Virus record (IMG/VR): IMGVR_UViG_3300044731_000025
Coordinates: 1-42,567 of that record
Direction: 5' to 3' (one strand)
DNA from: a virus
Length of the DNA stretch: 42,567 nucleotides
Below the pieces are notes generated by a model. It did not search any database. It saw only the letters and a program-made list of their open reading frames with translations, and was not told the origin of the DNA. A program made the position numbers and the translations under genes. Shown here piece by piece: positions 107 through 42,567 of the stretch; positions within the stretch are counted from its first letter, which is position 1; every line of letters starts with the position of its first letter.

Positions 107-126
107 GCAATGGCTCCACAATGCCC

Positions 127-431: not shown

Positions 432-962
432 ATGAGAAATCGTGAACAATGGCTCGCAGCGTTTGCAACTGCTGCTCGCCGACCAATCGCTCAATCAATC
501 CAAGGTGGAGGCGAGGAGGAGAGCGCAATCCGTCTCTCTTGTGGCTTCCCTCCTAAAACTGGGCGCAAGGCTGCAACTGCTGCAATCGTGCCTCCAACTG
601 CATCTCAGGATTTCACTGCTGAGATTTTCGTGGCTCCAACCGTTGACCAAGCCTCCGAGGTAGCCAAGGCGATTATTCCCTTGCTCCGAGTGGCTCAATC
701 AGGCAACTGGCGCTCAGCAGCACCAAGCGTTGCTCAACCCTTGGCTGACCTCCCAGCATGGGCAGAATCAATCCTCGAATCCCTTGGCGAATATCCTCAC
801 GCCAAAATCGAAATCGCTGCTGCTGCCAAGCAGACAACTCGCCTCATCAAGGTTGCGTGTTTAAACGACAACTACATCGCCCGAATCTCTCGCTCAACGC
901 TTGTGAATCTTGGCGCTCCAATCTGCCCAGCATGCAACATCTCACTCGTGGAGGCTAACTAA
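432..962 (+). CDS. SprT-like family protein, catalytic motif lost
   Basis: A 176-residue protein. The pattern REQWL near the start, SCGFPPKTGRK, an IF-VAP segment, LGEYPHA, TRLIKV and GAPICPAC matches, from memory, a phage family of SprT-like zinc metallopeptidase relatives. In that family an HELVH motif follows the IFISP segment; here the equivalent stretch reads IIPLLRVAQSG with no histidines, and the first CxxC of the C-terminal zinc ribbon is replaced by CLNDN, exactly where a GTTTAAAC site (859) sits. It is therefore probably not an active protease. The ATG at 432 is chosen over GTG at 393 because AAAGG lies about 10 bases upstream. Its stop overlaps the amidoligase start (TAATG), indicating translational coupling. 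Confidence 0.6.
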   Translation: MRNREQWLAAFATAARRPIAQSIQGGGEEESAIRLSCGFPPKTGRKAATAAIVPPTASQDFTAEIFVAPTVDQASEVAKAIIPLLRVAQSGNWRSAAPSVAQPLADLPAWAESILESLGEYPHAKIEIAAAAKQTTRLIKVACLNDNYIARISRSTLVNLGAPICPACNISLVEAN

Positions 963-1711: not shown

Positions 1712-1720
1712 CAGCAGGCA

Positions 1721-1766
1721 GCCTGCCCCTAGTGGGTGAGCGAGGGTGCAATCCCCTCGGCAGGCA
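1721..1766 (+). ncRNA. tRNA-like element: acceptor stem plus T-arm
   Basis: Between two co-directional genes, GCCTGCC (1721-1727) pairs perfectly with GGCAGGC (1759-1765), followed by an unpaired A1766. Directly inside the 3' strand is a 5-bp stem GAGGG/CCCTC (1742-1746, 1754-1758) closing the 7-base loop TGCAATC, which fits the tRNA T-loop pattern TTCRANY except for G in place of the second T, and keeps the closing G-C pair. Only 14 bases (1728-1741) replace the D and anticodon arms and no CCA is encoded (ACGA follows). This is a truncated tRNA mimic, tRNA remnant or a cis-acting mRNA structure. A second hairpin (1771-1794) sits between it and the next gene. Resemblance by chance is possible. 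Confidence 0.45.
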
Positions 1767-1770
1767 CGAA

Positions 1771-1794
1771 CGGATAGAGAAAATCTCTCTACCG
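1771..1794 (+). other. Hairpin upstream of small membrane protein
   Basis: CGG (1771-1773) and TAGAGA (1775-1780) pair with TCTCTA (1786-1791) and CCG (1792-1794) around a 5-base loop, with A1774 bulged. The final G begins the GTTTAAAC site at 1794. It lies 23 bases before the next start codon and has no T-tract, so it is more likely an mRNA stabilising or regulatory structure than a terminator. Confidence 0.4.
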
Positions 1795-1816
1795 TTTAAA
1801 CAAAGGAGACTGGAAA

Positions 1817-1918
1817 ATGTATAACGCATTACCTTGGTGGCTGACTTGGATAGATGGTCGTGCCTTACTGCTTGCCTTGCTTGCGGTCGGCTTCTATCTA
1901 TATTCAAAGTTGGTATAA
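1817..1918 (+). CDS. Small membrane protein, 33 residues
   Basis: ATG preceded by AAAGGAG at 8-base spacing, a strong ribosome binding site. The product has a tryptophan-rich start (LPWWLTW), then a hydrophobic run with an arginine at its start (GRALLLALLAVGFYLYSKLV), consistent with one transmembrane helix of about 18 residues. No family is recognised. It lies between the amidoligase and glutaminase genes, so it may be an accessory of that module, but nothing in the sequence proves it. The gene is repeated identically in the right end of the window. Confidence 0.65.
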   Translation: MYNALPWWLTWIDGRALLLALLAVGFYLYSKLV

Positions 1919-1922
1919 CAAA

Positions 1923-2069
1923 ATGTTATATATCATTGAAGGCACCGACCCATCGGGTCGTAAGTTCAATAGTATTTACAACAAAGAGGATGCCGATTAC
2001 CTATTGGCAGCCGACCGTTTAAACAGGCTGGTAAAAGTTATCAGCCCATGTGTTACACTTAACTCATAA
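1923..2069 (+). CDS. Small hypothetical protein, 48 residues
   Basis: Starts four bases after the preceding stop. The product begins MLYIIEGTDPSGRKF and contains NKEDADYLLAADRL, a soluble, mixed-charge sequence without a recognised domain. The RLN triplet is encoded by the GTTTAAAC site at 2017. There is no clear Shine-Dalgarno, suggesting coupling to the upstream gene; no in-frame ATG exists within the next few codons. Conserved unchanged in the repeated right end. Confidence 0.55.
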   Translation: MLYIIEGTDPSGRKFNSIYNKEDADYLLAADRLNRLVKVISPCVTLNS

Positions 2070-2095
2070 CAACTAGCAGACTGGAGAAATAAATT

Positions 2096-2899
2096 ATGTG
2101 TGGAATCGCAGGCTTCTGCCTCAACCCAAAGCACAATCAGAATCAAACAGACCTTGCAGCACAAATGCTCATGGACATCGAGCATCGTGGGCAAGATGCA
2201 ACAGGTGTTGCTTGGATTAACCCAGCCTCAGGCAATCGGGTAATCACAAAGGCACCGCTATCAGCAACTAAGTTCATCGCAACAGATGCAGGCAGGCGCT
2301 TATGTTTAAACGCACAGACTGCTATCTTGCACACTCGTTGGGCAACTCAAGGTTCACCAAAGGTGAGCGACAACAACCACCCAATTCCTCGTGGCAAAAT
2401 CGTGCTCACTCACAACGGACACATCAGCAACGATGACCAATTGTTTAAACAACTTAAGGTCAAGCGCCATGGACAGGTAGACAGCGAGGCAGTGGCTGCA
2501 CTAATTGCCTTTACCGCAGCGCCTATCACCGAGGTGTTGGCTCGTGTTCAAGGCACTGCTGCACTGGCTTGGATTGAGCAGGGCAAGGGCAACACACTGC
2601 ATCTTGCTCGTGTTAACTCCTCACCCCTATGGATTGGGCAAACCAAATCAGGTTCCCTTGTTTACGGCTCAACTCAAGAGACAATCGAGAACGCAGCAAT
2701 CATGCTCGACTCAGACCTTGATTGGGAATACACCGCAGCCGAGGGTGAATACTTCAAGGTTAAGAACGGCAAGATTGTGGAGCATCAGAACTTCGAGCCG
2801 TTTAGACAGGTCTATACAAACAACTGGCGTGGGTTCGGTAGATTAACCGATGCAGAACTCGACAAGTATTGGGCTGACCAAGATGAACTAGCCTTCTAA
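2096..2899 (+). CDS. Stand-alone class II glutamine amidotransferase domain
   Basis: A 267-residue protein starting MCGIAGF. Removal of Met would expose Cys2 as the N-terminal nucleophile of Ntn-type glutaminases (GlmS/PurF family). HTRWATQGSP, THNGHISND and VDSEAV match conserved motifs binding glutamine and shaping the active site. There is no synthase domain behind it, so ammonia must be delivered to a partner; the amidoligase 385 bases upstream is the obvious candidate. GGAGA lies 9 bases before the ATG. Bases 2494-2761 (residues about 133-222) differ strongly from the second copy at 41803, with several amino-acid changes but no length change. A strong terminator follows directly. Confidence 0.88.
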   Translation: MCGIAGFCLNPKHNQNQTDLAAQMLMDIEHRGQDATGVAWINPASGNRVITKAPLSATKFIATDAGRRLCLNAQTAILHTRWATQGSPKVSDNNHPIPRGKIVLTHNGHISNDDQLFKQLKVKRHGQVDSEAVAALIAFTAAPITEVLARVQGTAALAWIEQGKGNTLHLARVNSSPLWIGQTKSGSLVYGSTQETIENAAIMLDSDLDWEYTAAEGEYFKVKNGKIVEHQNFEPFRQVYTNNWRGFGRLTDAELDKYWADQDELAF

Positions 2900-7288: not shown

Positions 7289-7906
7289 TTAAACGCCTGC
7301 TCGCTTCCGCAAACCTTCTGCGCCCTCGTTGAGGTAGACATCATTAACATCTTGACCCTCAGGCATGAACACAGGAAACACATTGTCTAGTTCTCGACTT
7401 AGATGCTTAGCCATCTCACGCCCTGCATTGTCACCATCACATAGCAGGACAACCTTTGACCAGTCAGCAAGCACACGATTGTAAAAGGACTTCCAGTTAT
7501 TAGCGCCAGGCAAACCAACTGCACTGAACCCTGCTTGGGTGGCTACAACTGTATCAAGTTCACCTTCACATATAGCCAGCACATCTGAATCATTACCCAA
7601 TGCATTGATGTTATAGATGTGAGTAGTAGCCCCTGGTCTGCTCATATATTTCGGACCACCATCACTGTTTAAACTGCGGAACCGTATGTCAATCACACCT
7701 GTTGGTGTTAAGTAAGGGATTGCTAACTTACCAACATAAGGTTCATGCCCCATCTCAGGCTCTCTTACGAAGCCGAGGCGAAACATAATCGCTGTCTGTT
7801 CGGTGATACCTCTGCTCTGTAGATACGGCACTATTTCCTGTAGGTTTTGAGCGTAACTCTCCGTTGCTTTCTCCAGTAATTCCTTCTGCGATTTGCTTAG
7901 CCTCAT
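7289..7906 (-). CDS. Primase catalytic subunit, Toprim domain
   Basis: A 205-residue protein. Residues about 1-60 match the region before Toprim in DnaG-type primases (YLQSRGITEQTAIMFRLGF), then VLAICEGELDTVVATQAG and VVLLCDGDNAGREMAKHL carry the Toprim glutamate and DxD. It would synthesise RNA primers in partnership with the zinc-binding protein encoded just upstream. The ATG at 7906 has AGAAGGAG nine bases upstream, inside the zinc-finger gene, and the two frames overlap for 152 bases. Its stop (GTT TAA) comes from the GTTTAAAC site at 7287. Confidence 0.85.
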   Translation of the reverse strand: MRLSKSQKELLEKATESYAQNLQEIVPYLQSRGITEQTAIMFRLGFVREPEMGHEPYVGKLAIPYLTPTGVIDIRFRSLNSDGGPKYMSRPGATTHIYNINALGNDSDVLAICEGELDTVVATQAGFSAVGLPGANNWKSFYNRVLADWSKVVLLCDGDNAGREMAKHLSRELDNVFPVFMPEGQDVNDVYLNEGAEGLRKRAGV

Positions 7907-21278: not shown

Positions 21279-21439
21279 TAGTTAGCCTTCTTTCGTGCTG
21301 CTCTCATGTTGTCCACAAGATTGGGATATTTTCTACCAGCCTTTTTTGCAGCAGCCTTGGCTGATGCTTTTGCAGCAGGTGAAAGTGGTTTAGATTTTTT
21401 CTTAGGGTTTGGTTTATCCCATACTTCTTTTTTAGCCAT
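21278..21439 (-). CDS. Small basic protein, 53 residues
   Basis: MAKKEVWDKPNPKKKSKPLSP, then AAKASAKAAAKKAGRKYPNL and VDNMRAARKKAN. About a third of the residues are lysine or arginine; it is probably DNA-binding or a disordered internal virion component. Start and stop overlap neighbours by one base (TAATG at the stop). The Ala/Lys composition resembles histone-like tails. Confidence 0.6.
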   Translation of the reverse strand: MAKKEVWDKPNPKKKSKPLSPAAKASAKAAAKKAGRKYPNLVDNMRAARKKAN

Positions 21440-21696
21440 TACCATTTCACCTTATCTGCCCAATACGCTGCACTCATTTTGCCTTTGGCAATGTTTGTAG
21501 CGTGACGAGCCTTAAATGATTTTTGTCTTGCAGTTGGAGTCTTGTCTCCACTGACACCCTGTTGACCAAAGCGAATAGTTTTAACCTGGTCACCAGACTT
21601 TGCCACAACTACATGCGACTTTGTTGGATGGCTCGGTGTGCGCTTAGGCTTATTAAAGCCCGACACTCCTGCTCGCTTTAGTCTAGGGTCTGTCAT
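21439..21696 (-). CDS. Conserved small phage protein (DUF6321-like)
   Basis: An 85-residue basic protein: FNKPKRTPSHPTKSHVVVAK, TIRFGQQGVSGD, and RQKSFKARHATNIAKGKMSA followed by AYWADKVKW. This ordered pattern is strongly conserved in many phages and I associate it with DUF6321, from memory. Function unknown; the basic composition and place in the head region suggest nucleic-acid contact within the virion. Confidence 0.7.
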   Translation of the reverse strand: MTDPRLKRAGVSGFNKPKRTPSHPTKSHVVVAKSGDQVKTIRFGQQGVSGDKTPTARQKSFKARHATNIAKGKMSAAYWADKVKW

Positions 21697-21704
21697 TTTT
21701 TTCT

Positions 21705-21827
21705 TTACTTTCCACCAAGAGTAGTCGGATTATTGACCGCAGGGGCAGGGATGCCATACGGGTTAATTGTTCCAAAGTTGTCGTCTGCATTGACGGTGTT
21801 AGTCCCACATCCACATTGTGTGCACAT
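21705..21827 (-). CDS. Mini-protein with CxxCxC start, 40 residues
   Basis: MCTQCGCGTNTVNADDNFGTI followed by a proline/asparagine-rich tail ending NPTTLGGK. Three cysteines in seven residues suggest metal binding. Its ATG lies three bases before the HslV-like gene's stop-distal end (gap of two bases), and its frame is intact over the whole gap between two confident genes. The lack of a clear independent ribosome binding site keeps confidence moderate. Confidence 0.5.
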   Translation of the reverse strand: MCTQCGCGTNTVNADDNFGTINPYGIPAPAVNNPTTLGGK

Positions 21828-21829: not shown

Positions 21830-22531
21830 TTACATTGCCTTCTTCTTGAGCATTGACATGCCCTTCTTTAATTCTTTAGCCTTTGCAGTTCTTGATTCAG
21901 CCTTTTCAGCCATTGCATAAGCCTTCTTCTTCATTGCTGGTGATGCTGCCTTCTTCTTCATTGCTGGCATGTTATTCCCCTTTTGTGTGATTATTTTGAC
22001 ATCTCCACCGACACCTATACAGTAGTCAGCAGAAATCTTAATTGCTCTACGAGCAGCAAACTCTGCTGCCTTAATAGAGTTCTTACTAAAGCCAGTGGCT
22101 AATGCACCTAGTGCTAATTGCCCACCACTGCCTACTGAGTAAAGTCCACGGTCATCTCGTGACCATAAGTATTGTTCGTCAATTTCATAAATAACACCGT
22201 TTAAACACATAAGTGCATCAAAGCCAGCGTTTGGGTCTTTAACCGCATCTGGTTCATAACCATGTTCTTTCATTGCATCTCGTAGAGATGGAAGCACCTT
22301 GACTTGCATAAAAGCATCAAGTTGCATTGTCTTAATAAGTTTAGGTGGAGTCCATAAAAACTCTGCTATGTTGCCAGCAATGGCATCTCCTGCAAAGGCA
22401 AACACATAGTCACCCTTACGCACTGCCTTGTCCATGCCCTTGGCATAGTAAGGTTTGTCATCATAGGTAGTCATGGAATCTGCTGCAATTACTGCCCAGC
22501 CTTTTCCCTGAATACCTACGATGGCAGTCAT
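21830..22531 (-). CDS. HslV/proteasome-like peptidase with basic tail
   Basis: A 233-residue protein. MTAIVGIQGKGWAVIAADS aligns with the start of HslV: Thr2 would be the N-terminal nucleophile after Met removal, Asp18 and Lys35 match the catalytic Asp17 and Lys33, and VFAFAGDA, YSVGSGGQLALGA and ISADYCIGVGG match the GFAGG, IGSGG and AGDICIY motifs. Residues about 188-233 are an extra Lys/Ala/Met-rich tail (PAMKKKAASPAMKKKAYAM). An internal ATG at 21970 with AAAAGGGGAAT upstream could translate the tail alone. No HslU partner is seen. A head-maturation protease or virion Ntn-hydrolase role is inferred from its place beside capsid genes. Confidence 0.8.
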   Translation of the reverse strand: MTAIVGIQGKGWAVIAADSMTTYDDKPYYAKGMDKAVRKGDYVFAFAGDAIAGNIAEFLWTPPKLIKTMQLDAFMQVKVLPSLRDAMKEHGYEPDAVKDPNAGFDALMCLNGVIYEIDEQYLWSRDDRGLYSVGSGGQLALGALATGFSKNSIKAAEFAARRAIKISADYCIGVGGDVKIITQKGNNMPAMKKKAASPAMKKKAYAMAEKAESRTAKAKELKKGMSMLKKKAM

Positions 22532-22533: not shown

Positions 22534-22971
22534 TTACCCCTTAAAACTATTAGTGTTTGCATCGTAGGCTTTACCTACTTTGTTTGAATCATCTATTGCT
22601 TTTTGCACTTGCTTAGTAGAGGTTCCTGCTGGTTGTATTCCTTGTTTACGAGCATCTCTGTAAAGGTTTAATTCTTTATCCCATTTTTTCTGGGACATAT
22701 TCTTATTGCTTGCAGCATCTCCTGGGGATAGTTGGAGAGTCTTAGCCTTACACCCAAAGCATGGGCAAAATTCTGAATCAATGTGGTCTGAGTTGGGGGT
22801 TACTACACCCCAGTCTGACCATGGTTCTGTTGAGGTGGCATCGCACTTGGTGCAGCCAAACAACTCAACCTTAGGAAACATTTGTCCGTCTATTAAATCG
22901 TATCCGTCTTTTACTACTTTGCCGATATGTCCTTTAACTGAACAATCATAACTCGGTAATGTAGTCTCCAT
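22534..22971 (-). CDS. Zinc-binding hypothetical protein of head region
   Basis: About 145 residues. Cysteines in FGCTKCDATST and FCPCFGCKAKT, with an aspartate/tryptophan-rich segment between them, suggest a zinc-binding fold; the C-terminus is lysine-rich and helical (NMSQKKWDKELNLYRDARKQG). The ATG at 22971 is chosen over a GTG at 22983. It overlaps the upstream gene by 26 bases. No family recognised. Confidence 0.6.
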   Translation of the reverse strand: METTLPSYDCSVKGHIGKVVKDGYDLIDGQMFPKVELFGCTKCDATSTEPWSDWGVVTPNSDHIDSEFCPCFGCKAKTLQLSPGDAASNKNMSQKKWDKELNLYRDARKQGIQPAGTSTKQVQKAIDDSNKVGKAYDANTNSFKG

Positions 22972-23218
22972 AGTTGCCACCAATGCTTGGGTTTGTTAAA
23001 CGATTCTTAGTTGCTTCGTCAATAATATATTCACGCCCACCTAAGTATACCTCAGTGGCTTCAAAAGTTTGAGTTTGTGCAGGGTAGCGATAAGAAGAAT
23101 AAGTGCCATTTATCATCATTACTGTTACACCACGAGCGATTGAATAACGCTCTAGGAGGCGATGCCAACCCATAGGTGTTTCTTCAACACTTGGTGTTAC
23201 AAATAAATACTCTGCCAT
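22946..23218 (-). CDS. Hypothetical head-region protein, 90 residues
   Basis: MAEYLFVTPSVEETPMGWHRL, then LERYSIARGVTVMMINGTYS and EATEVYLGGREYIIDEATKN, a strand-rich sequence typical of small head-completion or decoration proteins. AAAGGAGG precedes the ATG at ideal spacing, the strongest ribosome binding site in this part of the operon. Its position directly after the capsid gene suggests a neck or head-completion protein. No family can be named. Confidence 0.65.
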   Translation of the reverse strand: MAEYLFVTPSVEETPMGWHRLLERYSIARGVTVMMINGTYSSYRYPAQTQTFEATEVYLGGREYIIDEATKNRLTNPSIGGNYGDYITEL

Positions 23219-23308: not shown

Positions 23309-24478
23309 TTATGCAGAGATGGATGAACCAGTCTCAATGCGGTAAAGTGCTGCTTCACGGTAACGAGAGAAGCCAAGAACTCCATACCAACCGATTGGTC
23401 GGAAACGAAGTAACTTGTCTGTAACTGGTCCGATAACAACATTTGGCTCCTGTGCAACTGCCTCAGCAAGCGCTTGCTTTCCAGCAACGATTGTGCGGTA
23501 GTTAGCAGCAACAGGAGTTACTGTTACAACAGTTGTCGCTGTAACTGCAGCAGTGTTTGCTGTGTCTACAGTGATTGTTGCGGTGCTGCCTGAGGTTACG
23601 ATAGATGTAATCTTCGCACCAGAGGCAATACCTGTGCCTGAAATCTTGTCGCCTGCTTCTGCTTGCAACGCAATAACAGATGTTGCAGCAACACCAAATG
23701 TAACTCCTGCTGATGTTCCAGCAACAGTTACGGCAGTTGTAGCAAGATTTGTTGCATCTGCGCCATCTACGCCACGATACATACGAGGTGTTTCAACAAA
23801 GAAAGCGCCTTCGTAGGTTCCGATTGAGCCAGCCCAGAAGTTGCCTGTGCCTGTCTCTGCGTATTTGTGCATGTCGTTCCAGCCACCAACGCCAGTTTCA
23901 GCACGAAGGTCGTGTGAAACTTCTGGGTGGATACCTGTCCAGTAAAGGGAACCTTCACGAGGAACAGCCTTGTTTGAACGAAGTTTGGCAACAGCACGGC
24001 GGATATTAGCAGCAGTGATTGTGTCAGTTGCTGTAATTGTTGCTGTTGATGTGCGAGTTCCACCGTAGATAACATTTGTTCCTTGGCGGAGAGTATCCAT
24101 GGCTAGTCTGTCTAGTGAGTCAGCCATGTTGTAAGCGATGATGTCTGCAACTGCAGGGTCAACATCTGAGAGTGAGAATAGTTGCAACTTGCGTGTTACA
24201 AGTGATGCATTGCCATACTCGTTAAGTGTTACAGAAACAGTTGTTACATCTGACAGTGCTACTGCATCTGGGTCAGTTGTTTCTGATAGTGATGCTGTTG
24301 CTGGTAGCAAGTCGTTGTAAATTGAGAATACAACACTTGAACCTGGCATTGCCTGTTGAGCAGGGCGCTTGTCGGCTACTGAACGAATCAGTGGCTGTGA
24401 ACGAAGCGCAAACTCTACATAGCGGTCATACGCTTGCTTGATTAAGCCAGCGAGTGCTGACGAATCTGTGTATGCCAT
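23309..24478 (-). CDS. Major capsid protein, N4-gp56-like
   Basis: A 389-residue protein with the HK97-type capsid pattern of the N4-gp56 family: IKQAYDRYVEFALRSQPLIR, GSSVVFSIYNDLLPATASLSE, VSVTLNEYGNASLVTRK, TAANIRRAVAKLRSNK, YWTGIHPEVSHDLRAET, then a C-terminal VVIGPVTDKLLRFRPIGWYGV. Residues about 245-325 are an inserted Thr/Ala/Gly-rich beta module (ISGTGIASGAKITSIVTSG), likely exposed on the capsid surface. It lies after a scaffold gene, as expected. GGAGGTGA precedes the ATG. Confidence 0.9.
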   Translation of the reverse strand: MAYTDSSALAGLIKQAYDRYVEFALRSQPLIRSVADKRPAQQAMPGSSVVFSIYNDLLPATASLSETTDPDAVALSDVTTVSVTLNEYGNASLVTRKLQLFSLSDVDPAVADIIAYNMADSLDRLAMDTLRQGTNVIYGGTRTSTATITATDTITAANIRRAVAKLRSNKAVPREGSLYWTGIHPEVSHDLRAETGVGGWNDMHKYAETGTGNFWAGSIGTYEGAFFVETPRMYRGVDGADATNLATTAVTVAGTSAGVTFGVAATSVIALQAEAGDKISGTGIASGAKITSIVTSGSTATITVDTANTAAVTATTVVTVTPVAANYRTIVAGKQALAEAVAQEPNVVIGPVTDKLLRFRPIGWYGVLGFSRYREAALYRIETGSSISA

Positions 24479-28749: not shown

Positions 28750-31700
28750 CTATCCCAATGTTACTGGGTCGTTTTGAAGAAAGCGGTTATAGAAACTGCT
28801 GAACTCTAACGACTCCTGCTTAAGTGTTGCAATTGTTTGATTCCACAAACCCTCAAGGTCTGCATTGTCTGCTGCTGTTAATGTGCCACTTGCACCACTT
28901 GCTTTACGGTTTGCAAGTTCTCTTGCAATTTGTGTGCGAGTTACATAGTAGGTTGCGATGGCTCCAACAACTGGTTTATTACCGTTATCTTGCATCCATT
29001 GTGGGTCACGAAGAATCGTGTTAATGGTTTGCATACGGTAAATCCATTTGCCTTTGTCAACGCTATAGAAGTCAGCAGCCCAGTCTTTATTGTTAGTTGC
29101 TAACTGCTGTGTATACGCTTGCTTAGCAAGATTAAGTTCTTCGGCACCACGCTCTGAATATGAGGTGTAGCCTTGTGCAAATAGTTGCTGGTCAAGGAAG
29201 TCCATAGCCTTACGGTAATCAATCCAACCCATTTTCTTTTGAGCATCTTGCTTAAGAAGTGAAGGGTCACGCTGACCACGGAAGTTTGTGGTTGAGCCAG
29301 GAACTGGAGAGTTACGCATCTGCCATCGGTAGGCTGCTTGGCTAAAGTCATACTTACCATCTGGGTCGTTGACTAGGAAGCCAATCATCTCAGGTGTAGT
29401 GCTACCAATTTTAGATATTAAACCATTATACTTTTTAAGATTAGCAACTGCAGCCTGTGTAGCATCAACTCCAGTGTTGTTAAGTGATGCTGAGATTGTA
29501 GCCTCACCCATTTCTGGATACATTTGCAAGAACAAAGCATCTGCTTGAGAACCGTAAGTCTGTTGTAGTTTACGGTATTGCTGTGTATACCAACCTAGTG
29601 GTGAGTCATACTGTGCAGCAAATGGAAGCACAAGGTTAGACAAAGCCTTAACCTTATACATGTTATTTGTAAGGTCATTAATTTCTTTAAATGTAGGTTC
29701 AGTATCACGGTCGCCTAGGCGATACTTGATTAGTTCATAACGGTAAACGGTATTAAATGTTCTTGACCATGAACCATCACGAGTTCCTGACCACAACTGT
29801 GCAGCCTTCTGCAATGCAGGTGGTAACAATGTTTTAATTGGAGATTCTGCTGCTCCAAATGGAATAACCTGCTTAAGGATTCCTTCCAAGTCAGGGCGCA
29901 AAATTTCTAAATACTGAGCAGGGATAGCAACTACTGGACCAAATCCAGGATGCACTTCACCTTGGAACATAACATCAAGTGAGCGAATAGGAATACTTAC
30001 TTGGCTTCCAGCACTACGAATAGCAGCAGCCAAACCTTTACCGCCAGGAACTGCCTCCATTGTTTTCATAAAGGTTTCTGGCATAGGCAAAACTAATCTA
30101 CTATCGTAACTAAATTCTTTTGATGGGTTACCATCTTTGTCAACATAGTTGTTCTGATTGCTAAGAGAAGAAGTAATCTGACCAGCCCTTGCAATTGCTG
30201 CTGGGTTTTCTTTTGCAAGAGTAGTCCAACGGCGCATGGTATTTTCCCAAGCGTTAAAGAACGGCATAAGATAACGCATCTTTTCACCAGCGTATGACTT
30301 ACGCATGATTGTAAATAGAGTCTTGTTAACTTCTCTACGAGCGCCCTCTACTGCATCTTTGCGTAGTGCATTAATTTCATCAAGGGTAAGTTCAGCCTTA
30401 GGGTCATTAAGTTGTGAGCGCTTAAGTGAAAGAGCAATGTCTCCACGCTGTCTCATCTCTGCACGATATACAGCACGAGCCAATGGGTGACGGGCAAGTG
30501 TTGTTTCAGGCAAAGAACCTAGGAAGTAGAAAGCCTTTTGAACAAAAGCCTGTGCTGCTCCTGGTGCACCTTGGATTCCAGGCGCTTGAGGAATTACGCT
30601 ACCAATAATGTCTGGCATTGCTGGTTGGTCTGCAAAGTGTGTGCGAAGATACATTTCATCAATAAGGTTATTTCTAAATGCTTCTTGAATTTCAACATCT
30701 GGAAGCATACGGGCATAAGCAGAATACAAGTTTCCTACAAAGTCCTCTGCATCTGTGCCTACATTAAGGCGCTCGCTTGGAACCTTGAAAGCCCTATCAT
30801 CAATACTCATCTTAGTTGAATACGCTTTACCTTCATCAGTTTTGCGTAGCCATCTAACAACTTGTTCTGGAGTTTCGTTGTCTAAAAACTTTTGGATAAT
30901 TGGGTCAATCTTGTTTTCGTTTGGTGAACGCCATAGGTTATTAAGATAGTTGGCATAACCAGTAAAGTATCGTGGGTCGTTAGGTGACAAACGGATTTCT
31001 TCCATACCACCATAACGAGCAGTAAATAATTGAGATGGAGCATCTGCCATTAACCTATAGGTGTCAGCGTTGTCTGTGCGCTGCATGAGAATATCTCCCA
31101 ATTCACCTGCTGCAGCATCTGGGTGTTCAATCACAGTTCCATCATAAAGTTTTTGAGTATATGTTCCAGTGCCAATACGCTTCTTTGGTGCGTTTAAACG
31201 ACTTTCTTCTACAATGCGAGCATCAAGTCGTTGCATAAGATTTTCGTGCTTTGCTTTAGTTAGTGCGCCTCTATCGGCTAATTCACGAACAAGGTTAACT
31301 ATGCCATCGGCTGGGTATTTACCGTCTGCGATGAGGTCTGCGAGTTCGCTAGTGCTCTGGCTATAACTTGGTCTGCTAAATCCTCTGCGAACGCTCTGCG
31401 CTCCGCTGGTGACATCTCCTGCACTGGCTTTTCTGACTTGACCCAATGCAAACCCTGCGCTTGCTCCTTCATCGCCTGTTCCTCCTGTGTTAATAAAGGC
31501 ATTGTCCATATCGCCTTGTGCAATTCTATCAAGGTCTGCCACTGCTTGTTGGTTACGAGAGGTGCCAGTCTTAACTGCTTTGGCACGGTCTTTAATAACA
31601 TTAACAGGCTCAGCCCAAATGGTTAGAACGCCATTGTCATTAGGTGCAATCCATGTTCCAAAGTGGTCAGCGCCTTCAAATTTATTTAGGTTATCTTCAA

Positions 31701-34700
31701 TGTGCTGAATCAATGACTCACGAGCAGCAGCAGAATCAGCAATGGCATCATCTAGTGGTAGTTGCCAAGTGGCACCACGAACGGCTACTGAATAACCAGC
31801 AACGGGCACGGCTCCTGTTTGAAGTCCAAATGTTCCACCTTGGTTGTCAATGGTAGAACGCAATATGTCCATAATACGAGACTCGTTCTTGCGAAGCGCC
31901 TCAGTGTTACGGATAGTTTCAATGCGTTTACGAGCAAGGTCTGCTGCTGGGTCTTGTGTAGCAGTTTGAACCATTTTAGGGTCTACAAGAACTGTTGCAC
32001 GACCATTAGCCTTGGTATCGGGAAGTGTTAATTTACCTACGCCATTGGCACGCATCCACTCAAGAAGTTCTTTTTCTTTACCCTTCCATGAGTCTGGCTT
32101 ACGAATATCAAGTCCAAGTGCTTTAAGTTCTGGGTAATCGTTTAAACCTAAACGAACTCGTGAACCACTAAATGTGCGTAGGTCAACAGGTGTGCCGTAT
32201 ACCCTAGAGGTAACAACCTGTCCTTGATTACCTGGCTTAACAATACGGAATTGTCCTTCAAGTAACATCTTTTGAGAAACTGTATCTGGGTCAATTGCAC
32301 GCCATGTGCCACTAGGTATGCTAAGTAATTCAACTCTATTGCCTTTGGCAATACTGTTACGGAAACCATCACGCATATCTGAGGCAATAGTCTGCATAGC
32401 CTTTGATGGCTTGCGAACGCCACCTTCTCTAATAAGTTCGCCTTCACGATTGCGAAGGTTCTTAGGCATAGAGTATGCACGACCAGTAATGCGCTTGTAA
32501 ATAGTAGATGCTGAAATAACCTTTATGCCTGCTTCGGCATACTGGTTTGCTATATCATCAGAATAAGTCATCGCCAATGGGCGGTTAGGATTTAAAGAAG
32601 TAAGTCTTGATGGAGAACCATGGTGCAAAATCTCGCCTGAACGATAAGAAGAAATCTCAAGAAACTCAATAGCCTGTTCTTGTGTTAACTTACCCCGTTT
32701 AAACGCAAGTTCAACGGCTTCCATCTGAGAATCAATTTCTTGATTAAGGCTGTTAATTTGAGCACGCTCTGATTGAACTCTTGTCATTTCATTACGGAGT
32801 GCTACTGAATCTTCACGCACACCTTTTTTAACAAGGTTCTTATCTGTAAGTCTTTCGATGCCAATGATGCGGTTGTCATACCAATTCTTTATGCTTTCCT
32901 TGTTTACATCAGCAGCAGCAACAAGTCCATATCCTTTTGCAAGAATAGATGCAGTTGCTTCGGCAGTGTTACGCACTGTGTAACCAAGGCGTAAAAGAAC
33001 AGAAGCCTTCCACACATCGTTAAGTAAGCCCATAACATAACGGTTAACATCTGGGTCAACAATGCCTTGGCTGCCTTCAATTGCCTGAATTAAACCTTTG
33101 TTCTCTGTAAGAACACGGGCATAGTTTTCAAGGTCAACCATTGGCTTAGCGTTAATACCTTGGCGCTCAGCATAAGGAATCTTAAGAATAACATCATCAT
33201 TAGTCATTAAATACTTACGGTCACGAAGTGAATCTAATGCAACTTTACGGCGACCTTTATAGGCGTTCCAAATAATAGCAGCGGTTTCATCTGAAATACC
33301 TAAGGCTTTGTTAACTTGTAAAACAGCCAAATCCTCAAAAGATTCTGCTACAAGACCACGAGCCTCAGGAATATCTCCTGCTTTAATAAACAAATCATAG
33401 TGTTCAGCAATACTTACATTTGCTGAGTCGCCAACAATCCTACGCAACATGCCACCAAATGCTTTGATTTCATTAAATGAATCTGAATCATTGTTATTAA
33501 ACCAACCAGCAGGGCGCTCGCCTGCCCATCGTTCAGCAAAGTTAACTACTGCAACCATTGGGTGATACTTAGTTGGTTGAAAAATTCCGATAGTTGGGTA
33601 TGCAGTTGGGGAAGGTTGTTCTCCCAAAGCACGGGCTGTCTTACGCTCAGCCTCACGGATTGCACCCTTTTGAGCCATAGATGCACCAAAGGTTCGCTTA
33701 GTTAAGTCAGCACCCTTTAAGGTTAATTTATTTAAATACTGAATATATGGGTCTTGGTCAGCAAGTTTAACTAAAGCATCTGCTGCATCAAGTATGTTTG
33801 CATCTTCAACAATACCATTGGTTGGTATGTTATCAGCAATCTGTTTATCTACTTGAGATACTGGCTTTAATTTATCCATTACAAATGCTAAGTCTTTACG
33901 CTTATCAACAAGACGAACCATTGCTTCTGTATCTTTATTTGAAATAGCAAGCAATGTATCTGCAACATCATCTACAGTTTTTGCTTCACCAAGCAAATAT
34001 GACATTGTATCTGCATCGTTAGATGCAGCAATCATTGGGTGATTACGAATAGTTTTTGAGTTATTAGCAGCAAACCACTCAAGAGTGTTGTTTAAACCGC
34101 CTTGAATATCTCGACCTTCGTTAATCTTTGCAGCCAAAGTTTGAGGAGAGATAATTGTTACGCCTCTTATAGCCTTTGGTAGGAATAAATCTTTAGTTAA
34201 TTGTGCTGCATTTGCATCTACGGCACCCATTGGTTGTGTAACTAAGGCTTTACGAGCAAGACCAGCAGCCTTACCTATCTTGCCAAGTGGGTCAGTTACT
34301 GTAGTAAAGAAGGTGTCATAGGCACCTGATATGGTGCGATAACGCCAGTTAGTATCAAAGATTTCACGGTCATTAGCATCGAAGATATTGAAATCGCCAC
34401 GAAGTTCAGTAGCAGTTAAGTCAAAGCGTGATTGCATATAAGCAATTGCTTGTCCTGCTGAAATTTCACTGCGTTGTTTATACGCTTCTTGGAAGTCACC
34501 TGTAGCAAGACCAGTAATAGCCGCTGATAAAGGCTCACGAACAACCTTACCACCAGCCTCATAAGATGCTTGAAAGAGTGGAAGAACTGCCTTACCTAAT
34601 ACAGCACCGCCTACTTTACGAGGTATATATGTTGCACCTGCAGTAGTTGCTTTAAATGTATTTCCAAGTAATTGGAAGGCATCGCCTGCCCAATTCTTGT

Positions 34701-34812
34701 CATTAGTGGTAACGGAGGCAAGGTCAGACATTGCTGTAGCCCAGCCAATATCATTACCAAAGTCTTTTACTGACTTCTCTGCCCAATCACCAATGTTTTT
34801 TATCCAACTCAT
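28750..34812 (-). CDS. Giant virion protein (2020 residues) with ART-like segment
   Basis: The largest gene. The N-terminus (MSWIKNIGDWAEKSVKDFGND) and C-terminal half (MRYLMPFFNAWENTMRRWTT, LYSAYARMLPDVEIQEAF) resemble huge internal virion proteins of actinophage-like podoviruses. Around H730-H731-G732, EILHHGSPSRLTSL then AMTYSDDIANQYAEAG looks like the start of an ADP-ribosyltransferase-type fold. Residues about 985-1095 (GLQTGAVPVAGYSVAVRG, DHFGTWIAPNDNGVLTIWAE, GTSRNQQAVADLDR) match another small module I recall from actinophage head proteins. The layout recalls polyvalent proteins, which carry effector domains into the host with phage DNA. Enzymatic activity is inference. Confidence 0.65.
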   Translation of the reverse strand: MSWIKNIGDWAEKSVKDFGNDIGWATAMSDLASVTTNDKNWAGDAFQLLGNTFKATTAGATYIPRKVGGAVLGKAVLPLFQASYEAGGKVVREPLSAAITGLATGDFQEAYKQRSEISAGQAIAYMQSRFDLTATELRGDFNIFDANDREIFDTNWRYRTISGAYDTFFTTVTDPLGKIGKAAGLARKALVTQPMGAVDANAAQLTKDLFLPKAIRGVTIISPQTLAAKINEGRDIQGGLNNTLEWFAANNSKTIRNHPMIAASNDADTMSYLLGEAKTVDDVADTLLAISNKDTEAMVRLVDKRKDLAFVMDKLKPVSQVDKQIADNIPTNGIVEDANILDAADALVKLADQDPYIQYLNKLTLKGADLTKRTFGASMAQKGAIREAERKTARALGEQPSPTAYPTIGIFQPTKYHPMVAVVNFAERWAGERPAGWFNNNDSDSFNEIKAFGGMLRRIVGDSANVSIAEHYDLFIKAGDIPEARGLVAESFEDLAVLQVNKALGISDETAAIIWNAYKGRRKVALDSLRDRKYLMTNDDVILKIPYAERQGINAKPMVDLENYARVLTENKGLIQAIEGSQGIVDPDVNRYVMGLLNDVWKASVLLRLGYTVRNTAEATASILAKGYGLVAAADVNKESIKNWYDNRIIGIERLTDKNLVKKGVREDSVALRNEMTRVQSERAQINSLNQEIDSQMEAVELAFKRGKLTQEQAIEFLEISSYRSGEILHHGSPSRLTSLNPNRPLAMTYSDDIANQYAEAGIKVISASTIYKRITGRAYSMPKNLRNREGELIREGGVRKPSKAMQTIASDMRDGFRNSIAKGNRVELLSIPSGTWRAIDPDTVSQKMLLEGQFRIVKPGNQGQVVTSRVYGTPVDLRTFSGSRVRLGLNDYPELKALGLDIRKPDSWKGKEKELLEWMRANGVGKLTLPDTKANGRATVLVDPKMVQTATQDPAADLARKRIETIRNTEALRKNESRIMDILRSTIDNQGGTFGLQTGAVPVAGYSVAVRGATWQLPLDDAIADSAAARESLIQHIEDNLNKFEGADHFGTWIAPNDNGVLTIWAEPVNVIKDRAKAVKTGTSRNQQAVADLDRIAQGDMDNAFINTGGTGDEGASAGFALGQVRKASAGDVTSGAQSVRRGFSRPSYSQSTSELADLIADGKYPADGIVNLVRELADRGALTKAKHENLMQRLDARIVEESRLNAPKKRIGTGTYTQKLYDGTVIEHPDAAAGELGDILMQRTDNADTYRLMADAPSQLFTARYGGMEEIRLSPNDPRYFTGYANYLNNLWRSPNENKIDPIIQKFLDNETPEQVVRWLRKTDEGKAYSTKMSIDDRAFKVPSERLNVGTDAEDFVGNLYSAYARMLPDVEIQEAFRNNLIDEMYLRTHFADQPAMPDIIGSVIPQAPGIQGAPGAAQAFVQKAFYFLGSLPETTLARHPLARAVYRAEMRQRGDIALSLKRSQLNDPKAELTLDEINALRKDAVEGARREVNKTLFTIMRKSYAGEKMRYLMPFFNAWENTMRRWTTLAKENPAAIARAGQITSSLSNQNNYVDKDGNPSKEFSYDSRLVLPMPETFMKTMEAVPGGKGLAAAIRSAGSQVSIPIRSLDVMFQGEVHPGFGPVVAIPAQYLEILRPDLEGILKQVIPFGAAESPIKTLLPPALQKAAQLWSGTRDGSWSRTFNTVYRYELIKYRLGDRDTEPTFKEINDLTNNMYKVKALSNLVLPFAAQYDSPLGWYTQQYRKLQQTYGSQADALFLQMYPEMGEATISASLNNTGVDATQAAVANLKKYNGLISKIGSTTPEMIGFLVNDPDGKYDFSQAAYRWQMRNSPVPGSTTNFRGQRDPSLLKQDAQKKMGWIDYRKAMDFLDQQLFAQGYTSYSERGAEELNLAKQAYTQQLATNNKDWAADFYSVDKGKWIYRMQTINTILRDPQWMQDNGNKPVVGAIATYYVTRTQIARELANRKASGASGTLTAADNADLEGLWNQTIATLKQESLEFSSFYNRFLQNDPVTLG

Positions 34813-35572: not shown

Positions 35573-37387
35573 TTAGATAGGTAGTCGCCGTGCGACTGTT
35601 GCTTGTAGATTAGGTTCACCACGGGCACCGAGAGATGCAAGTAATGATTGAACATCTGGTCTACCGCCTGGAGCGATTTGTCCTGGAGCGATGCCTTGCA
35701 TACGCCCTGACTCGCTCATGCCCATTGGAAGTTGCCCAACACCTGCTGCGCTCTCACTTGGCATGCCCATAGATTCGGGACTTACTGAGCCTGGGGCTGC
35801 AGCAGGTGCGGGATTCTGCGGTTGAAACGCCTCTTGGATAGCAACTTCAATAGAAGTTCCCTTTTGGCGTTCAGTAATAACATACGAAAGTTTGCGTAGG
35901 ATGTCGGATGGGTCTTGTCCTTGACTTGCAAGGGCTGGTATTGCTTGTGCGTATGAAGCAATTGCTTGTTTCATAGCATCACGGAGTTCTTCTGTCTCTA
36001 CCTTTTGTTCTTCATTAGTTGCATTGAAGGAGAAAGGCATCTGTCGGCGTAGGAAATCACGAGAAATCAACTTGTCACCTCGTGCTTGTAGTCCAAATAC
36101 TAATGCACGGTTAGGGTCAAGTCCTGCCATTAAGCCATATTGAATATCTACGGTGTAATCACCTGCAATATCACGGGCTGGCTTGTATTTAATATCGTAA
36201 GGTGTTCCATTGTATACACCTCGTAGTTGTTTTTCTTCGTCTTTAAAGATTTTTTCATCAACTTTAAGAGCAAGTGCTAACAATTCGGTAAAGGCACGGG
36301 CAAACATTGCATGTGCAGTCTTAATTTGTGTATCAAAACCACCCATAAGTGCTTTAACGCCTTGACCTGTAATAATAGAAGCATCTGAATTACCAGTTCT
36401 TGCTTCTGGGAAGCGTGAGCCTAGACGGAGTTCGCTCTCAAGAACCTGTGACTGTGCGAACACATTATTAGGTAGTTCAAGTGGGACTCTGCGAATCTCA
36501 TTAGGCTTGCTTGAACGCATAATTGCATCTGGTCCAAGGGCTAACTCCTGACTGTCGAGTGGCATAGCGATAGGCGCTTGCACTGATTTAGTTGCTGCTT
36601 CAAGTGAAAGCAACGCATAGCGTGCTTTAGCAACTTGAATAGCAAGAACATCATCAAATTGTCCACGAGATTGGTCGTCAATTGATGGTCGTTGAACAAC
36701 TCTAATCATGCACTCACCCATTATATTGGTTGCTCTATCCAACACAAGGTTGTTTTTATTAGGCATGAAGATTAAATCTTGGTCTTTATCGTGGAAACGA
36801 ACAATCTCAGACATGGTAGAAGTGTTGTTCTTATCGTAAATAAGGTGTGCTACTTCTGGATACTTAGCCATTAGTTCTTCTGTTGGTTTATTCATGCGCT
36901 GGAAGAACATAGTTACACGACCATAACGGTCAATAACTGGGTAAGAACCTAGGGAATCAAAGAACTTAATGCGTGGCATGTTCTCATCTATGTCAATTTC
37001 AACCTGTGCTGGAACGAATCCGTAGGTTACATAGCGGTCTGCAGCATTAAACATCTGGGTCTGTAGGTCAGAGAAGTTAACAATACCGTTAACAATTTCT
37101 CCACGCTTATCTGCCTTCTTGCGCTGTGTTTCTGATGCCATTGATGTAGATGTGCATGAAAACGATGGTAGTGGTGCAATAACCTCTGATAAGTCACGGG
37201 CTGCAATATCAACCATGTTGGCAACAATAGGGTTCTCGAAAGGACCATCTGGGAAAAGGTCTGGGTAAACATCTCGCATCTTACCTTGTCGAACCATAAG
37301 AACTTGATTCATGCGTTGGTCACGGTCGTCATACATACGGCGATAACGGTCATAATAGTTCTTAACTTCTTCAACTGATAGTGCCAT
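35573..37387 (-). CDS. Portal protein
   Basis: A 604-residue protein. NYYDRYRRMYDDRDQRMNQ, FENPIVANMVDIAARDLSE, QTQMFNAADRYVTYGFVPAQ, then an alternating beta/helix core and the long C-terminal helix-turn segment (EQKVETEELRDAMKQAIAS) match portal proteins. It forms the dodecameric ring through which DNA is packaged. The C-terminal 80 residues are Pro/Gly/Met-rich and probably disordered. Position directly after terminase supports the call. The ATG at 37387 has GGAGGTGA upstream. Confidence 0.82.
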   Translation of the reverse strand: MALSVEEVKNYYDRYRRMYDDRDQRMNQVLMVRQGKMRDVYPDLFPDGPFENPIVANMVDIAARDLSEVIAPLPSFSCTSTSMASETQRKKADKRGEIVNGIVNFSDLQTQMFNAADRYVTYGFVPAQVEIDIDENMPRIKFFDSLGSYPVIDRYGRVTMFFQRMNKPTEELMAKYPEVAHLIYDKNNTSTMSEIVRFHDKDQDLIFMPNKNNLVLDRATNIMGECMIRVVQRPSIDDQSRGQFDDVLAIQVAKARYALLSLEAATKSVQAPIAMPLDSQELALGPDAIMRSSKPNEIRRVPLELPNNVFAQSQVLESELRLGSRFPEARTGNSDASIITGQGVKALMGGFDTQIKTAHAMFARAFTELLALALKVDEKIFKDEEKQLRGVYNGTPYDIKYKPARDIAGDYTVDIQYGLMAGLDPNRALVFGLQARGDKLISRDFLRRQMPFSFNATNEEQKVETEELRDAMKQAIASYAQAIPALASQGQDPSDILRKLSYVITERQKGTSIEVAIQEAFQPQNPAPAAAPGSVSPESMGMPSESAAGVGQLPMGMSESGRMQGIAPGQIAPGGRPDVQSLLASLGARGEPNLQATVARRLPI

Positions 37388-37399
37388 GTTCACCTCCTA

Positions 37400-39707: not shown

Positions 39708-39833
39708 TCGTTGCTCGTATCAATCTCGCCCCGACCCAGCATACGCAGCGCAGCGCTTGGCTTGGCTGCATGCTTGGGCATCTCACTATGTGAGACGGGC
39801 ATCTCAACATGTGGCAATGGCTCCACAATGCCC

Positions 39834-40057
39834 AATAAGTTACTCGTGAGTAACTCTCTAAAGTCAGTTGTTTAATATCACTTTAGAGCATCGCAACATT
39901 TCAACATCGCTAAAGTCAGTATAAATCAATGGTTTTAGAGCATTACTCGCCAGTAACTTATTTTTTACCGCTTGCCAGCGCATGACCAATCGGAGGTAAT
40001 CGTTTAAATCCAAATCGTTTAAACTGCTCTAAAGTCAGTTAAAATCAAGGGTTTTAG
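39834..40057. other. Candidate origin region, second copy
   Basis: Base-for-base repeat of 127-350, with the same three 29-bp elements and nested inverted repeats. It exists only because the window passes one genome length. Confidence 0.5.
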
Positions 40058-40138
40058 GGGTGCTTGTAATTTTGTTTAAACTCGTTTACCTTTATCCCAG
40101 TGGAACAATCCACTACCGACTGGAAAGGTAACAACATC

Positions 40139-40669
40139 ATGAGAAATCGTGAACAATGGCTCGCAGCGTTTGCAACTGCTGCTCGCCGACCAATCGCTCA
40201 ATCAATCCAAGGTGGAGGCGAGGAGGAGAGCGCAATCCGTCTCTCTTGTGGCTTCCCTCCTAAAACTGGGCGCAAGGCTGCAACTGCTGCAATCGTGCCT
40301 CCAACTGCATCTCAGGATTTCACTGCTGAGATTTTCGTGGCTCCAACCGTTGACCAAGCCTCCGAGGTAGCCAAGGCGATTATTCCCTTGCTCCGAGTGG
40401 CTCAATCAGGCAACTGGCGCTCAGCAGCACCAAGCGTTGCTCAACCCTTGGCTGACCTCCCAGCATGGGCAGAATCAATCCTCGAATCCCTTGGCGAATA
40501 TCCTCACGCCAAAATCGAAATCGCTGCTGCTGCCAAGCAGACAACTCGCCTCATCAAGGTTGCGTGTTTAAACGACAACTACATCGCCCGAATCTCTCGC
40601 TCAACGCTTGTGAATCTTGGCGCTCCAATCTGCCCAGCATGCAACATCTCACTCGTGGAGGCTAACTAA
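40139..40669 (+). CDS. SprT-like family protein, second copy
   Basis: Identical to the gene at 432-962, including loss of the HELVH motif and the GTTTAAAC that replaces the first zinc-ribbon CxxC (40566). It belongs to the terminal redundancy, so it should not be counted as a second gene of the genome unless the duplication is shown to be real. Confidence 0.6.
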   Translation: MRNREQWLAAFATAARRPIAQSIQGGGEEESAIRLSCGFPPKTGRKAATAAIVPPTASQDFTAEIFVAPTVDQASEVAKAIIPLLRVAQSGNWRSAAPSVAQPLADLPAWAESILESLGEYPHAKIEIAAAAKQTTRLIKVACLNDNYIARISRSTLVNLGAPICPACNISLVEAN

Positions 40670-41418
40670 TGACTACCTTCGGTTTAGAGTTCGAGGTCGC
40701 AGGTATCTCGACATCAGCAGCATCAGCAGCGCTCAATCGTGGCGGAATCGCTTGCGAGGAGCCACGCTCAGCACATCAGCGCAACGATAACTGGACATCA
40801 GTTTACGATGGCTCAGTTCGTGGAGCCGAGGTTGTCTCTCCAATCCTCGACCCAATCCGTTTAAACGAGGCATCAACCGTTGCCCGCTTGCTTCTCGGAG
40901 CAGGTGGCAAGGTTGACCGCACAACTGGCTTCCATGTCCATATCGGCGCTCAAGATTTAAGCGTGGACAATATCGCCCAGTGGTATCTCAACTGGAATCT
41001 AGTTCACGATGCAATCGGCGTGCTCGTTGCGCCAAGCCGTTTAAACAACTCATACTGCAAATCGGTAAATCGTGAACATGCCGAGGCTAACGCCGAGCGC
41101 ATCCGCAACGGCAAAATCTCCGACCTACGAGGCGACCGCTACCAATCGTTTAACCTCGAAGCATACGGTCGCCATGGCACCCTCGAAATCCGACTACACC
41201 AAGGCACCCTCAACGGAGCCAAAGCGGTGGCGTGGGCAAAGTTCATTGATGCGTTTAAACAACTCAGTGCAACTCAATTACTGGCTCCTGAATCATTGGG
41301 CACTGGCACAAAATTGCAGCAGTGCACCAACCTCCTCAGCCTGCTAGTAATCCAAAGCGACCTTGACCTCAAGACCGCCGAGTATCTCAAAGACCGAGCA
41401 GCATCCCTCAACGGATAG
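40669..41418 (+). CDS. Putative amidoligase, second copy
   Basis: Identical in protein sequence to the gene at 962-1711 (GLEFE, GFHVHIG and GTLEIRLHQ motifs). Part of the terminal redundancy. Confidence 0.75.
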   Translation: MTTFGLEFEVAGISTSAASAALNRGGIACEEPRSAHQRNDNWTSVYDGSVRGAEVVSPILDPIRLNEASTVARLLLGAGGKVDRTTGFHVHIGAQDLSVDNIAQWYLNWNLVHDAIGVLVAPSRLNNSYCKSVNREHAEANAERIRNGKISDLRGDRYQSFNLEAYGRHGTLEIRLHQGTLNGAKAVAWAKFIDAFKQLSATQLLAPESLGTGTKLQQCTNLLSLLVIQSDLDLKTAEYLKDRAASLNG

Positions 41419-41427
41419 CAGCAGGCA

Positions 41428-41473
41428 GCCTGCCCCTAGTGGGTGAGCGAGGGTGCAATCCCCTCGGCAGGCA
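41428..41473 (+). ncRNA. tRNA-like element, second copy
   Basis: Identical repeat of 1721-1766: the 7-bp acceptor-like stem, 5-bp T-stem and TGCAATC loop are unchanged. Part of the terminal redundancy. Confidence 0.45.
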
Positions 41474-41523
41474 CGAACGGATAGAGAAAATCTCTCTACC
41501 GTTTAAACAAAGGAGACTGGAAA

Positions 41524-41625
41524 ATGTATAACGCATTACCTTGGTGGCTGACTTGGATAGATGGTCGTGCCTTACTGCTTGCCTTGCTTGCGGTCGGCTT
41601 CTATCTATATTCAAAGTTGGTATAA
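41524..41625 (+). CDS. Small membrane protein, second copy
   Basis: Identical to the 33-residue protein at 1817-1918, with the same AAAGGAG ribosome binding site. Part of the terminal redundancy. Confidence 0.65.
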   Translation: MYNALPWWLTWIDGRALLLALLAVGFYLYSKLV

Positions 41626-41629
41626 CAAA

Positions 41630-41776
41630 ATGTTATATATCATTGAAGGCACCGACCCATCGGGTCGTAAGTTCAATAGTATTTACAACAAAGAGGATGC
41701 CGATTACCTATTGGCAGCCGACCGTTTAAACAGGCTGGTAAAAGTTATCAGCCCATGTGTTACACTTAACTCATAA
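41630..41776 (+). CDS. Small hypothetical protein, second copy
   Basis: Identical to the 48-residue protein at 1923-2069. Part of the terminal redundancy. Confidence 0.55.
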   Translation: MLYIIEGTDPSGRKFNSIYNKEDADYLLAADRLNRLVKVISPCVTLNS

Positions 41777-41802
41777 CAACTAGCAGACTGGAGAAATAAA
41801 TT

Positions 41803-42567
41803 ATGTGTGGAATCGCAGGCTTCTGCCTCAACCCAAAGCACAATCAGAATCAAACAGACCTTGCAGCACAAATGCTCATGGACATCGAGCATCGTGGGCA
41901 AGATGCAACAGGTGTTGCTTGGATTAACCCAGCCTCAGGCAATCGGGTAATCACAAAGGCACCGCTATCAGCAACTAAGTTCATCGCAACAGATGCAGGC
42001 AGGCGCTTATGTTTAAACGCACAGACTGCTATCTTGCACACTCGTTGGGCAACTCAAGGTTCACCAAAGGTGAGCGACAACAACCACCCAATTCCTCGTG
42101 GCAAAATCGTGCTCACTCACAACGGACACATCAGCAACGATGACCAATTGTTTAAACAACTTAAGGTCAAGCGCCATGGACAGGTAGACAGCGAGGCAGT
42201 CGCTGCACTAATCGCCTTCACCGCAGCGCCTATCACCGAGGTGTTGGCTCGTGTTCAGGGCACTGCTGCACTGGCTTGGATTGAGCAGGGCAAGGGCAAC
42301 ACACTGCACCTCGCTCGTGTTAACTCATCGCCATTGTGGATTGGTCAGACCGCCACAGGTTCGCTCGTCTATGGCTCAACTGAGGAGACTATCGAGAACG
42401 CATCCATCATGCTGGACTCACCTCTTGACTGGTCATACGCAGCCAACGAGGGTGAATACTTCAAGGTCAAGAACGGCAAGATTGTGGAGCATCAGAACTT
42501 CGAGCCGTTTAGACAGGTCTATACAAACAACTGGCGTGGGTTCGGTAGATTAACCGATGCAGAACTC
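41803..42567 (+). CDS. Class II glutamine amidotransferase, variant copy, cut at window end
   Basis: The first 255 codons of the gene seen complete at 2096-2899; the window ends 12 codons before the stop. Residues 1-132 and about 223-255 match the left copy. Within codons about 133-222 (42201-42468) roughly 39 bases differ, including amino-acid changes near TKS/TAT, QE/EE, NAA/NAS, SDLDWEYTAAEG/SPLDWSYAANEG. The Cys2 nucleophile, RWATQGSP, NGHISND and DSEAV motifs are intact, so both alleles should be active. Confidence 0.85.
   Translation, partial: MCGIAGFCLNPKHNQNQTDLAAQMLMDIEHRGQDATGVAWINPASGNRVITKAPLSATKFIATDAGRRLCLNAQTAILHTRWATQGSPKVSDNNHPIPRGKIVLTHNGHISNDDQLFKQLKVKRHGQVDSEAVAALIAFTAAPITEVLARVQGTAALAWIEQGKGNTLHLARVNSSPLWIGQTATGSLVYGSTEETIENASIMLDSPLDWSYAANEGEYFKVKNGKIVEHQNFEPFRQVYTNNWRGFGRLTDAEL

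Follow-up and report, generated by a model that had tools for sequence, protein, structure and literature searches.

The analysed stretch of viral DNA (IMG/VR record IMGVR_UViG_3300044731_000025, positions 1 to 42,567; hereafter the window, 42,567 bases) carries an hslV-family gene whose product is probably, at a rough probability of 0.6, an accessory infection protease of the group-I proteasome-like kind. It would act without a dedicated unfoldase and not in head maturation, and its Lys-rich tail would be a gene with its own ribosome binding site (RBS) that is read through after loss of a stop codon. Support comes from the fold and family of the protein, its invariant active site, the lack of HslU, the separate tail gene with its conserved RBS, the switching between fused and unfused states, the changing genomic site of hslV and its absence from related genomes.

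The open reading frame at 21830-22531 (minus strand) encodes 233 aa, comprising a 187-residue core and an in-frame 46-residue Lys-rich tail. The features referred to below are the following.

21971-22531, minus strand: predicted proteasome-like (HslV/BPH-type) Thr hydrolase core, 187 aa, beginning Met-Thr; assigned from phrog_1040, PF00227, AlphaFold2/Foldseek and residues
21830-21970, minus strand: Lys/Ala-rich 46-residue tail, a separate small gene in frame with hslV; own ATG at 21970, with stand-alone and out-of-frame homologues
21977-21984, minus strand: Shine-Dalgarno-like (SD-like) site of the tail gene, AAAAGGGG, inside the last hslV codons CAA AAG GGG
21705-21827, minus strand: next small gene, 40 aa (MCTQCGCG...), starting just past the hslV-tail stop; homologues directly after hslV in L098-L111
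22534-22983, minus strand: upstream neighbour of hslV, function unassigned (phrog_10483)
23309-24478, minus strand: major capsid protein, N4-gp56 family (TIGR04387, 114.9 bits against a 60-bit cut-off; phrog_1357)
35573-37393, minus strand: portal protein (phrog_104); site B of hslV in relatives (L074, L075) is just downstream
7289-7906, minus strand: primase-like gene (phrog_849); site C of hslV in relatives (G001, L204-L224) is just downstream

Genome and probable host

The ends of this virus record form a direct repeat of 2,860 bases (window 1-2860 and 39708-42567) with 41 mismatches, 37 of which lie within ~250 bases inside a glutamine-amidotransferase-like gene. The record is therefore an over-assembled circle in which two strain variants were joined, and the genome is terminally complete. 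Profile searches identified, in addition to the portal protein, primase and N4-gp56 family capsid protein, WhiB, a sigma factor, a DnaB-like helicase and TerL. The capsid protein shares 68% identity with its counterpart in Planktophila phages LanE43AprE7/F5 (OX376640/OX376641). As a 'Ca. Nanopelagicales' host was used to isolate these phages (PMC10202952), a freshwater actinobacterium is the likely host here. Both cultured phages, E7 and F5, possess hslV, and the main text describing them names neither HslV nor any protease (PMC10202952).

Two virion genes of the window show unusual features. The capsid protein has 389 aa, compared with 314-345 aa in its homologues in G001, G006 and G020, and its match to Streptomyces phage capsids is split in two; around residues 245-325 it has a Thr/Ala-rich insertion that looks Ig-like. 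A 2,020-aa virion-module protein with no assigned function (28750-34812; phrog_10618) keeps a constant place, yet shares only 22-34% identity with the corresponding proteins of several relatives.

Fold, family and active site of the core

The core matches the PHROGs profile phrog_1040 ('peptidase HslV family') with an E-value of 1.7e-22, a profile that also detected every family member tested (73/73). It scores 24.1 bits against Pfam Proteasome PF00227 (cut-off 22.4), and profile searches with the core returned HslV (1.3e-11) and BPH, the betaproteobacterial proteasome homologue (1.3e-10). Thr2, Asp18, Lys35, Gly48, Gly134 and Gly136 are invariant among the distinct relatives (153/153), and Ser135 of the GSGG motif at 134-137 is kept in 146 of the 153. 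The constant Thr2 fits a nucleophile that would be exposed by Met removal.

These results bear out the HslV-like peptidase with a Thr2/Asp18/Lys35/GSGG set that the initial annotation had proposed, and the loss of the catalytic Thr in relatives, which it had named as evidence against its reading, was found in none of the 153. Other parts of the description do not hold. The 'CIG' motif is not conserved (Cys171 is present in only 22/153), and a close alignment with bacterial HslV was too strong a statement: the core scores 24.3 bits against the HslV equivalog model TIGR03692 (cut-off 157.75) and 24.7 bits against NF003964 (cut-off 137). By NCBI's rule it is therefore not an HslV orthologue.

An AlphaFold2 model based on an alignment of 73 diverse relatives has a mean pLDDT of 86.1, with values above 90 for most core residues and below 50 at 188-197. 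The tail (~44-72) is not packed as part of the core. The predicted structure is an alpha-beta-beta-alpha sandwich whose best solved matches in Foldseek are BPH (E 3e-11, TM 0.73-0.77 by target length), then the 20S beta subunit and HslV. Predicted helices at 50-59 and 71-89 are read as H1 and H2. With helices read as H1-H4 kept and no extra C-terminal elements, the core is, on this model, of the compact group-I proteasome-like kind and not a phage proteasome homologue (PPH).

Comparison with known proteasome homologues

Bacterial HslV resembles the phage core in the Thr/Asp/Lys/GSGG set, the lack of a propeptide beyond Met and a similar predicted fold (TM ~0.7), but the phage core lies far below the equivalog cut-off and has no phage-encoded HslU. 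Searches for phage-encoded HslU (TIGR00390) were negative in all related phage records (0/12) with positive controls, in agreement with the initial annotation. BPH (5ovs/5ovt/5ovu) is the best structural match, with an alignment that spans the whole core, and likewise has no known unfoldase. It differs in being a bacterial gene product with 17-24% identity and in forming a heptameric double ring, whereas a ring is only proposed for the phage protein. PPH has ~140 residues and lacks H2, in contrast to the 187 residues of the window core with predicted H1 and H2. The alpha-proteobacterial/actinobacterial proteasome homologue (AAH) is compact and of group I like the phage core, a likeness drawn by description only. 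AAH has been recorded in many phages and in no actinophages, and no AAA+ partners or informative gene contexts were reported for the new proteasome homologues (Fuchs, Alva and Lupas 2021, PMC8665760). BPH apparently works without an unfoldase (PMC8665760).

The phrog_1040 proteins of named phages (DSL-LC01 WJZ48484.1, Hum25 gp81, henriette 12B8) share core length and active site with the window family but are ~25-40% identical to it. Adjacency to the capsid or portal gene, or run-on into a basic gene, occurs only in part of the Nanopelagicales-type phages. The phrog_1040 family is already named in phages, and the novelty is limited to the actinophage example. A literature search found no experimental work on phage HslV-family proteins, and sequence-pattern searches of bacterial genome contigs found no bacterial homologues of the core.

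The tail gene and its junction with hslV

Its homologues show that the tail is a gene in its own right. The initial annotation had suggested that two neighbouring genes were fused in frame, the second with an internal, RBS-preceded ATG, and relatives in which the second part stands alone, out of frame or far from hslV strongly support this. The ATG at 21970 has AAAAGGGG six bases upstream. An SD-like motif lies ahead of the junction ATG in 71/74 distinct genes, compared with 26/1208 other ATG triplets (2%) in the same genes, and AGGGG is found 5-8 nt before the tail ATG in 50 of the 54 genes where the tail gene follows. GGG makes up ~5% of Gly codons in the core. The tail has no match in PHROGs.

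Most of the 67 close relatives have hslV and the tail in one continuous frame. The tail of L044, L046-L051 and others occupies a separate frame that overlaps the hslV end, with its own ATG and RBS; a one-base difference separates the fused CAAAGGGGAAACACAATG (L015) from the overlapping CAAAGGGGAAACACAAATG (L044). A clean stop between hslV and tail is kept in L124 (CAAAAGGGGAAATAAAATG). The tail gene is stand-alone in L059-L068 (L064 among them) and L074, and in L059-L063 and L066-L068 no hslV separates it from the homologue of gene 22534-22983, which it directly follows; two of the L059-L068 genomes carry hslV elsewhere. The two genes are far apart in G001, G006 and G020. In G006 the Lys-rich tail gene (L073, 19961-20098, minus strand) is found directly behind TerL, 13 kb from hslV, and the mini-gene therefore moves independently of hslV.

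The 74 distinct genes comprise 46 fused, 15 overlapping and 13 separate junctions, and a tree of codons 1-178 requires no fewer than 12 changes between these states. A second clade (~54% identical) shows the same series with a different basic gene: fused in L114, L115, L117 and L125, overlapping in L112 and L119-L122, and separate in L116. Since the RBS stays conserved while the junction states interchange, the fusion is best explained by repeated loss of the stop codon from a short spacer that follows the RBS within hslV. Probably both products are made, the free tail as well as the read-through protein. None of the 47 sequences in the window's own clade has an hslV that ends at a clean stop. 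Each runs on into the tail, either in frame or out of frame, and because of this pattern the basic extension could be useful there.

Two other origins of the junction were considered and rejected. In the window, a programmed -1 frameshift at A AAG GGG would run into a stop after GAA. Such a stop is missing from most fused relatives (e.g. CAAAAGGGGAACAACATG), and the motif is better explained as an RBS. An assembly error does not account for a fusion that is shared by dozens of independent contigs and that also occurs in the overlapping form.

Further small genes surround the junction. Window 21290-21827 holds a run of very small genes, among them the Cys-rich MCTQCGCG... gene (40 aa) and a Lys-rich one (MAKKEVWDKPNPKKK...). 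The number and order of basic mini-genes behind hslV vary among relatives, and they replace one another. The HslV-like protein of DSL-LC01 (L069, 12001-12690) has a basic C-terminal tail of its own (SKKAATKKAAPRKKSK...RRRSKQ), apparently gained independently.

Genomic position and distribution of hslV

Across 228 hslV loci the gene was found at no fewer than four sites: on the capsid side, behind gene 22534-22983 (site A); behind the portal gene, as in the isolate Planktophila phage E7 (site B); behind the primase gene in the replication cluster (site C); and between lysin-side genes and whiB/helicase (site D). Two of these lie in early/replication modules, outside the head module. The protein tree shows six changes of site label. 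The D-site sequences L127, L130 and L147 fall inside the B-site clade, and one move was therefore recent.

Positions in other phages are also diverse. The hslV-family gene lies beside whiB in DSL-LC01, beside ThyX in Pumpernickel, beside dihydrofolate reductase and thymidylate synthase in Geobacillus virus E3, and far from the head module in Hum25; the family profile detects all four proteins, with E-values of 4e-19 to 6e-64. In Vibrio phage henriette 12B8 a gene annotated as head maturation protease lies between the portal and capsid genes, and an HslV-family gene is found ~43 kb away from it.

The presence of hslV was compared with that of the head genes in 33 near-complete contigs, found via their homologous capsid protein. 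The gene is present in 24 of them, and in the other 9 the family profile found none, a search that a very divergent substitute could escape. Five of the genomes lacking hslV have terminal repeats (G025, 123 bases, exact; G047, 100, exact; G028, 132, 99%; G038, 131, 99%; G032, 427, 99%) and are therefore complete by that test. Nothing HslV-like was detected in G025, whose TerL, portal and capsid proteins are 83%, 68-77% and 77% identical to those of the window; the capsid protein of G028 is 79% identical. Streptomyces phage Immanuel3, with a capsid protein ~54% identical to that of the window, likewise has no hslV.

At the capsid-side site of hslV, some genomes without it (G025, G028, G023; L396-L401, L405-L406) have a gene of 82-85 aa, MAARK...YTxLExYCIxLNEY..., with an acidic C-terminus and no assigned function.

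Proposed function and alternatives

The protease is probably ATP-independent, and its likely task is protein digestion during infection, not construction of the shell. Once the initiator Met is removed, Thr2 would be free to act as N-terminal nucleophile, with Asp18, Lys35 and an oxyanion hole at Gly48 assisting it. The core most likely self-assembles into a homo-oligomeric ring. No dedicated unfoldase would be needed for such a ring to degrade small or unfolded polypeptides, a mode of action that has been proposed for both BPH and the uncapped proteasome. During infection such an accessory protease may clear or recycle host protein or damaged phage protein. For the Lys-rich tail gene, translation would start independently, at the RBS within the last hslV codons. 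In the window lineage the stop codon of the few-nucleotide spacer appears to have been lost, so that ribosomes reading hslV would also make the 233-aa form.

The initial annotation had raised the prospect of a new type of capsid maturation enzyme. A head-maturation or scaffold-removing protease, acting inside or at the prohead, would suit the placement of hslV in the window and close relatives (two genes after the capsid gene) and in another clade and Planktophila phage E7 (directly after the portal gene, the classical prohead-protease site). No classical prohead protease was recognised in the window by profile searches, as had been stated initially. Against an accessory role, two of the four sites (after the portal and after the capsid gene) are the usual places of head proteases, and the clades at these sites contain most close relatives of the window. 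However, hslV is neither fixed in the portal-to-capsid module nor present wherever that capsid is built, as a prohead protease would be. It occurs in replication/early modules of other relatives, is absent from complete, terminally redundant genomes with homologous head modules (G025, G028) and from Immanuel3, and is found in henriette 12B8 alongside an annotated head maturation protease. On this evidence a head role is unlikely. It is more doubtful still that in the portal- and capsid-adjacent clades the enzyme was recruited as a self-compartmentalising scaffold or head protease, with the Lys-rich tail packing it with DNA into the head.

The main rival is a role in host takeover or counter-defence, in which the protease would destroy specific proteins of the host; this is possible but not probable. 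Patchy presence, mobility between sites and whiB, ThyX and peptide deformylase neighbours are typical of auxiliary and takeover genes, but neither a defence-linked neighbour nor a target was identified, and hslV, in 24/33 genomes, is commoner than most anti-defence genes. The fusion might also be functional in itself, the basic tail delivering the protease to DNA, the nucleoid or the capsid interior. Read-through into Lys-rich sequence is the commonest state (46/74 distinct genes), the second clade shows it again with another basic gene, and DSL-LC01 has its own basic C-terminus. Such a function is nevertheless rather unlikely: the junction states interchange at least 12 times, clades at other sites end a few residues past the core with no tail, the overlapping state preserves the tail frame as a separate gene, basic residues arise in both frames of the A-rich gene, and the tail is not confidently modelled on the core. 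A proteasome-like fold does not imply proteolysis, since the Ntn fold can be a ligase such as connectase (PMC8665760). A specific ligase or amidase of that sort is nonetheless very improbable for a core whose best fold matches are ring proteases, and which by prediction is of the compact ring-forming kind, with H1-H4 kept and the two-helix insertion of connectase absent.

Implications

Phage proteasome-like genes were already on record, with neither informative neighbourhoods nor actinophage AAH carriers in the 2021 survey (PMC8665760). If the proteins described here do belong to AAH, they would add actinophage members absent from that survey. If the head-recruitment reading were true, this would be the first proteasome-type capsid enzyme. 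The junction is a clean natural series, in which an RBS inside a gene end lets neighbours fuse or separate by one-base changes. Hundreds of freshwater actinophage sequences carry a proteasome relative whose active site is kept without exception; its genomic position varies, and some genomes have naturally lost it. Natural presence and absence, several sites and two cultured carriers therefore make the role of this viral proteasome relative testable.
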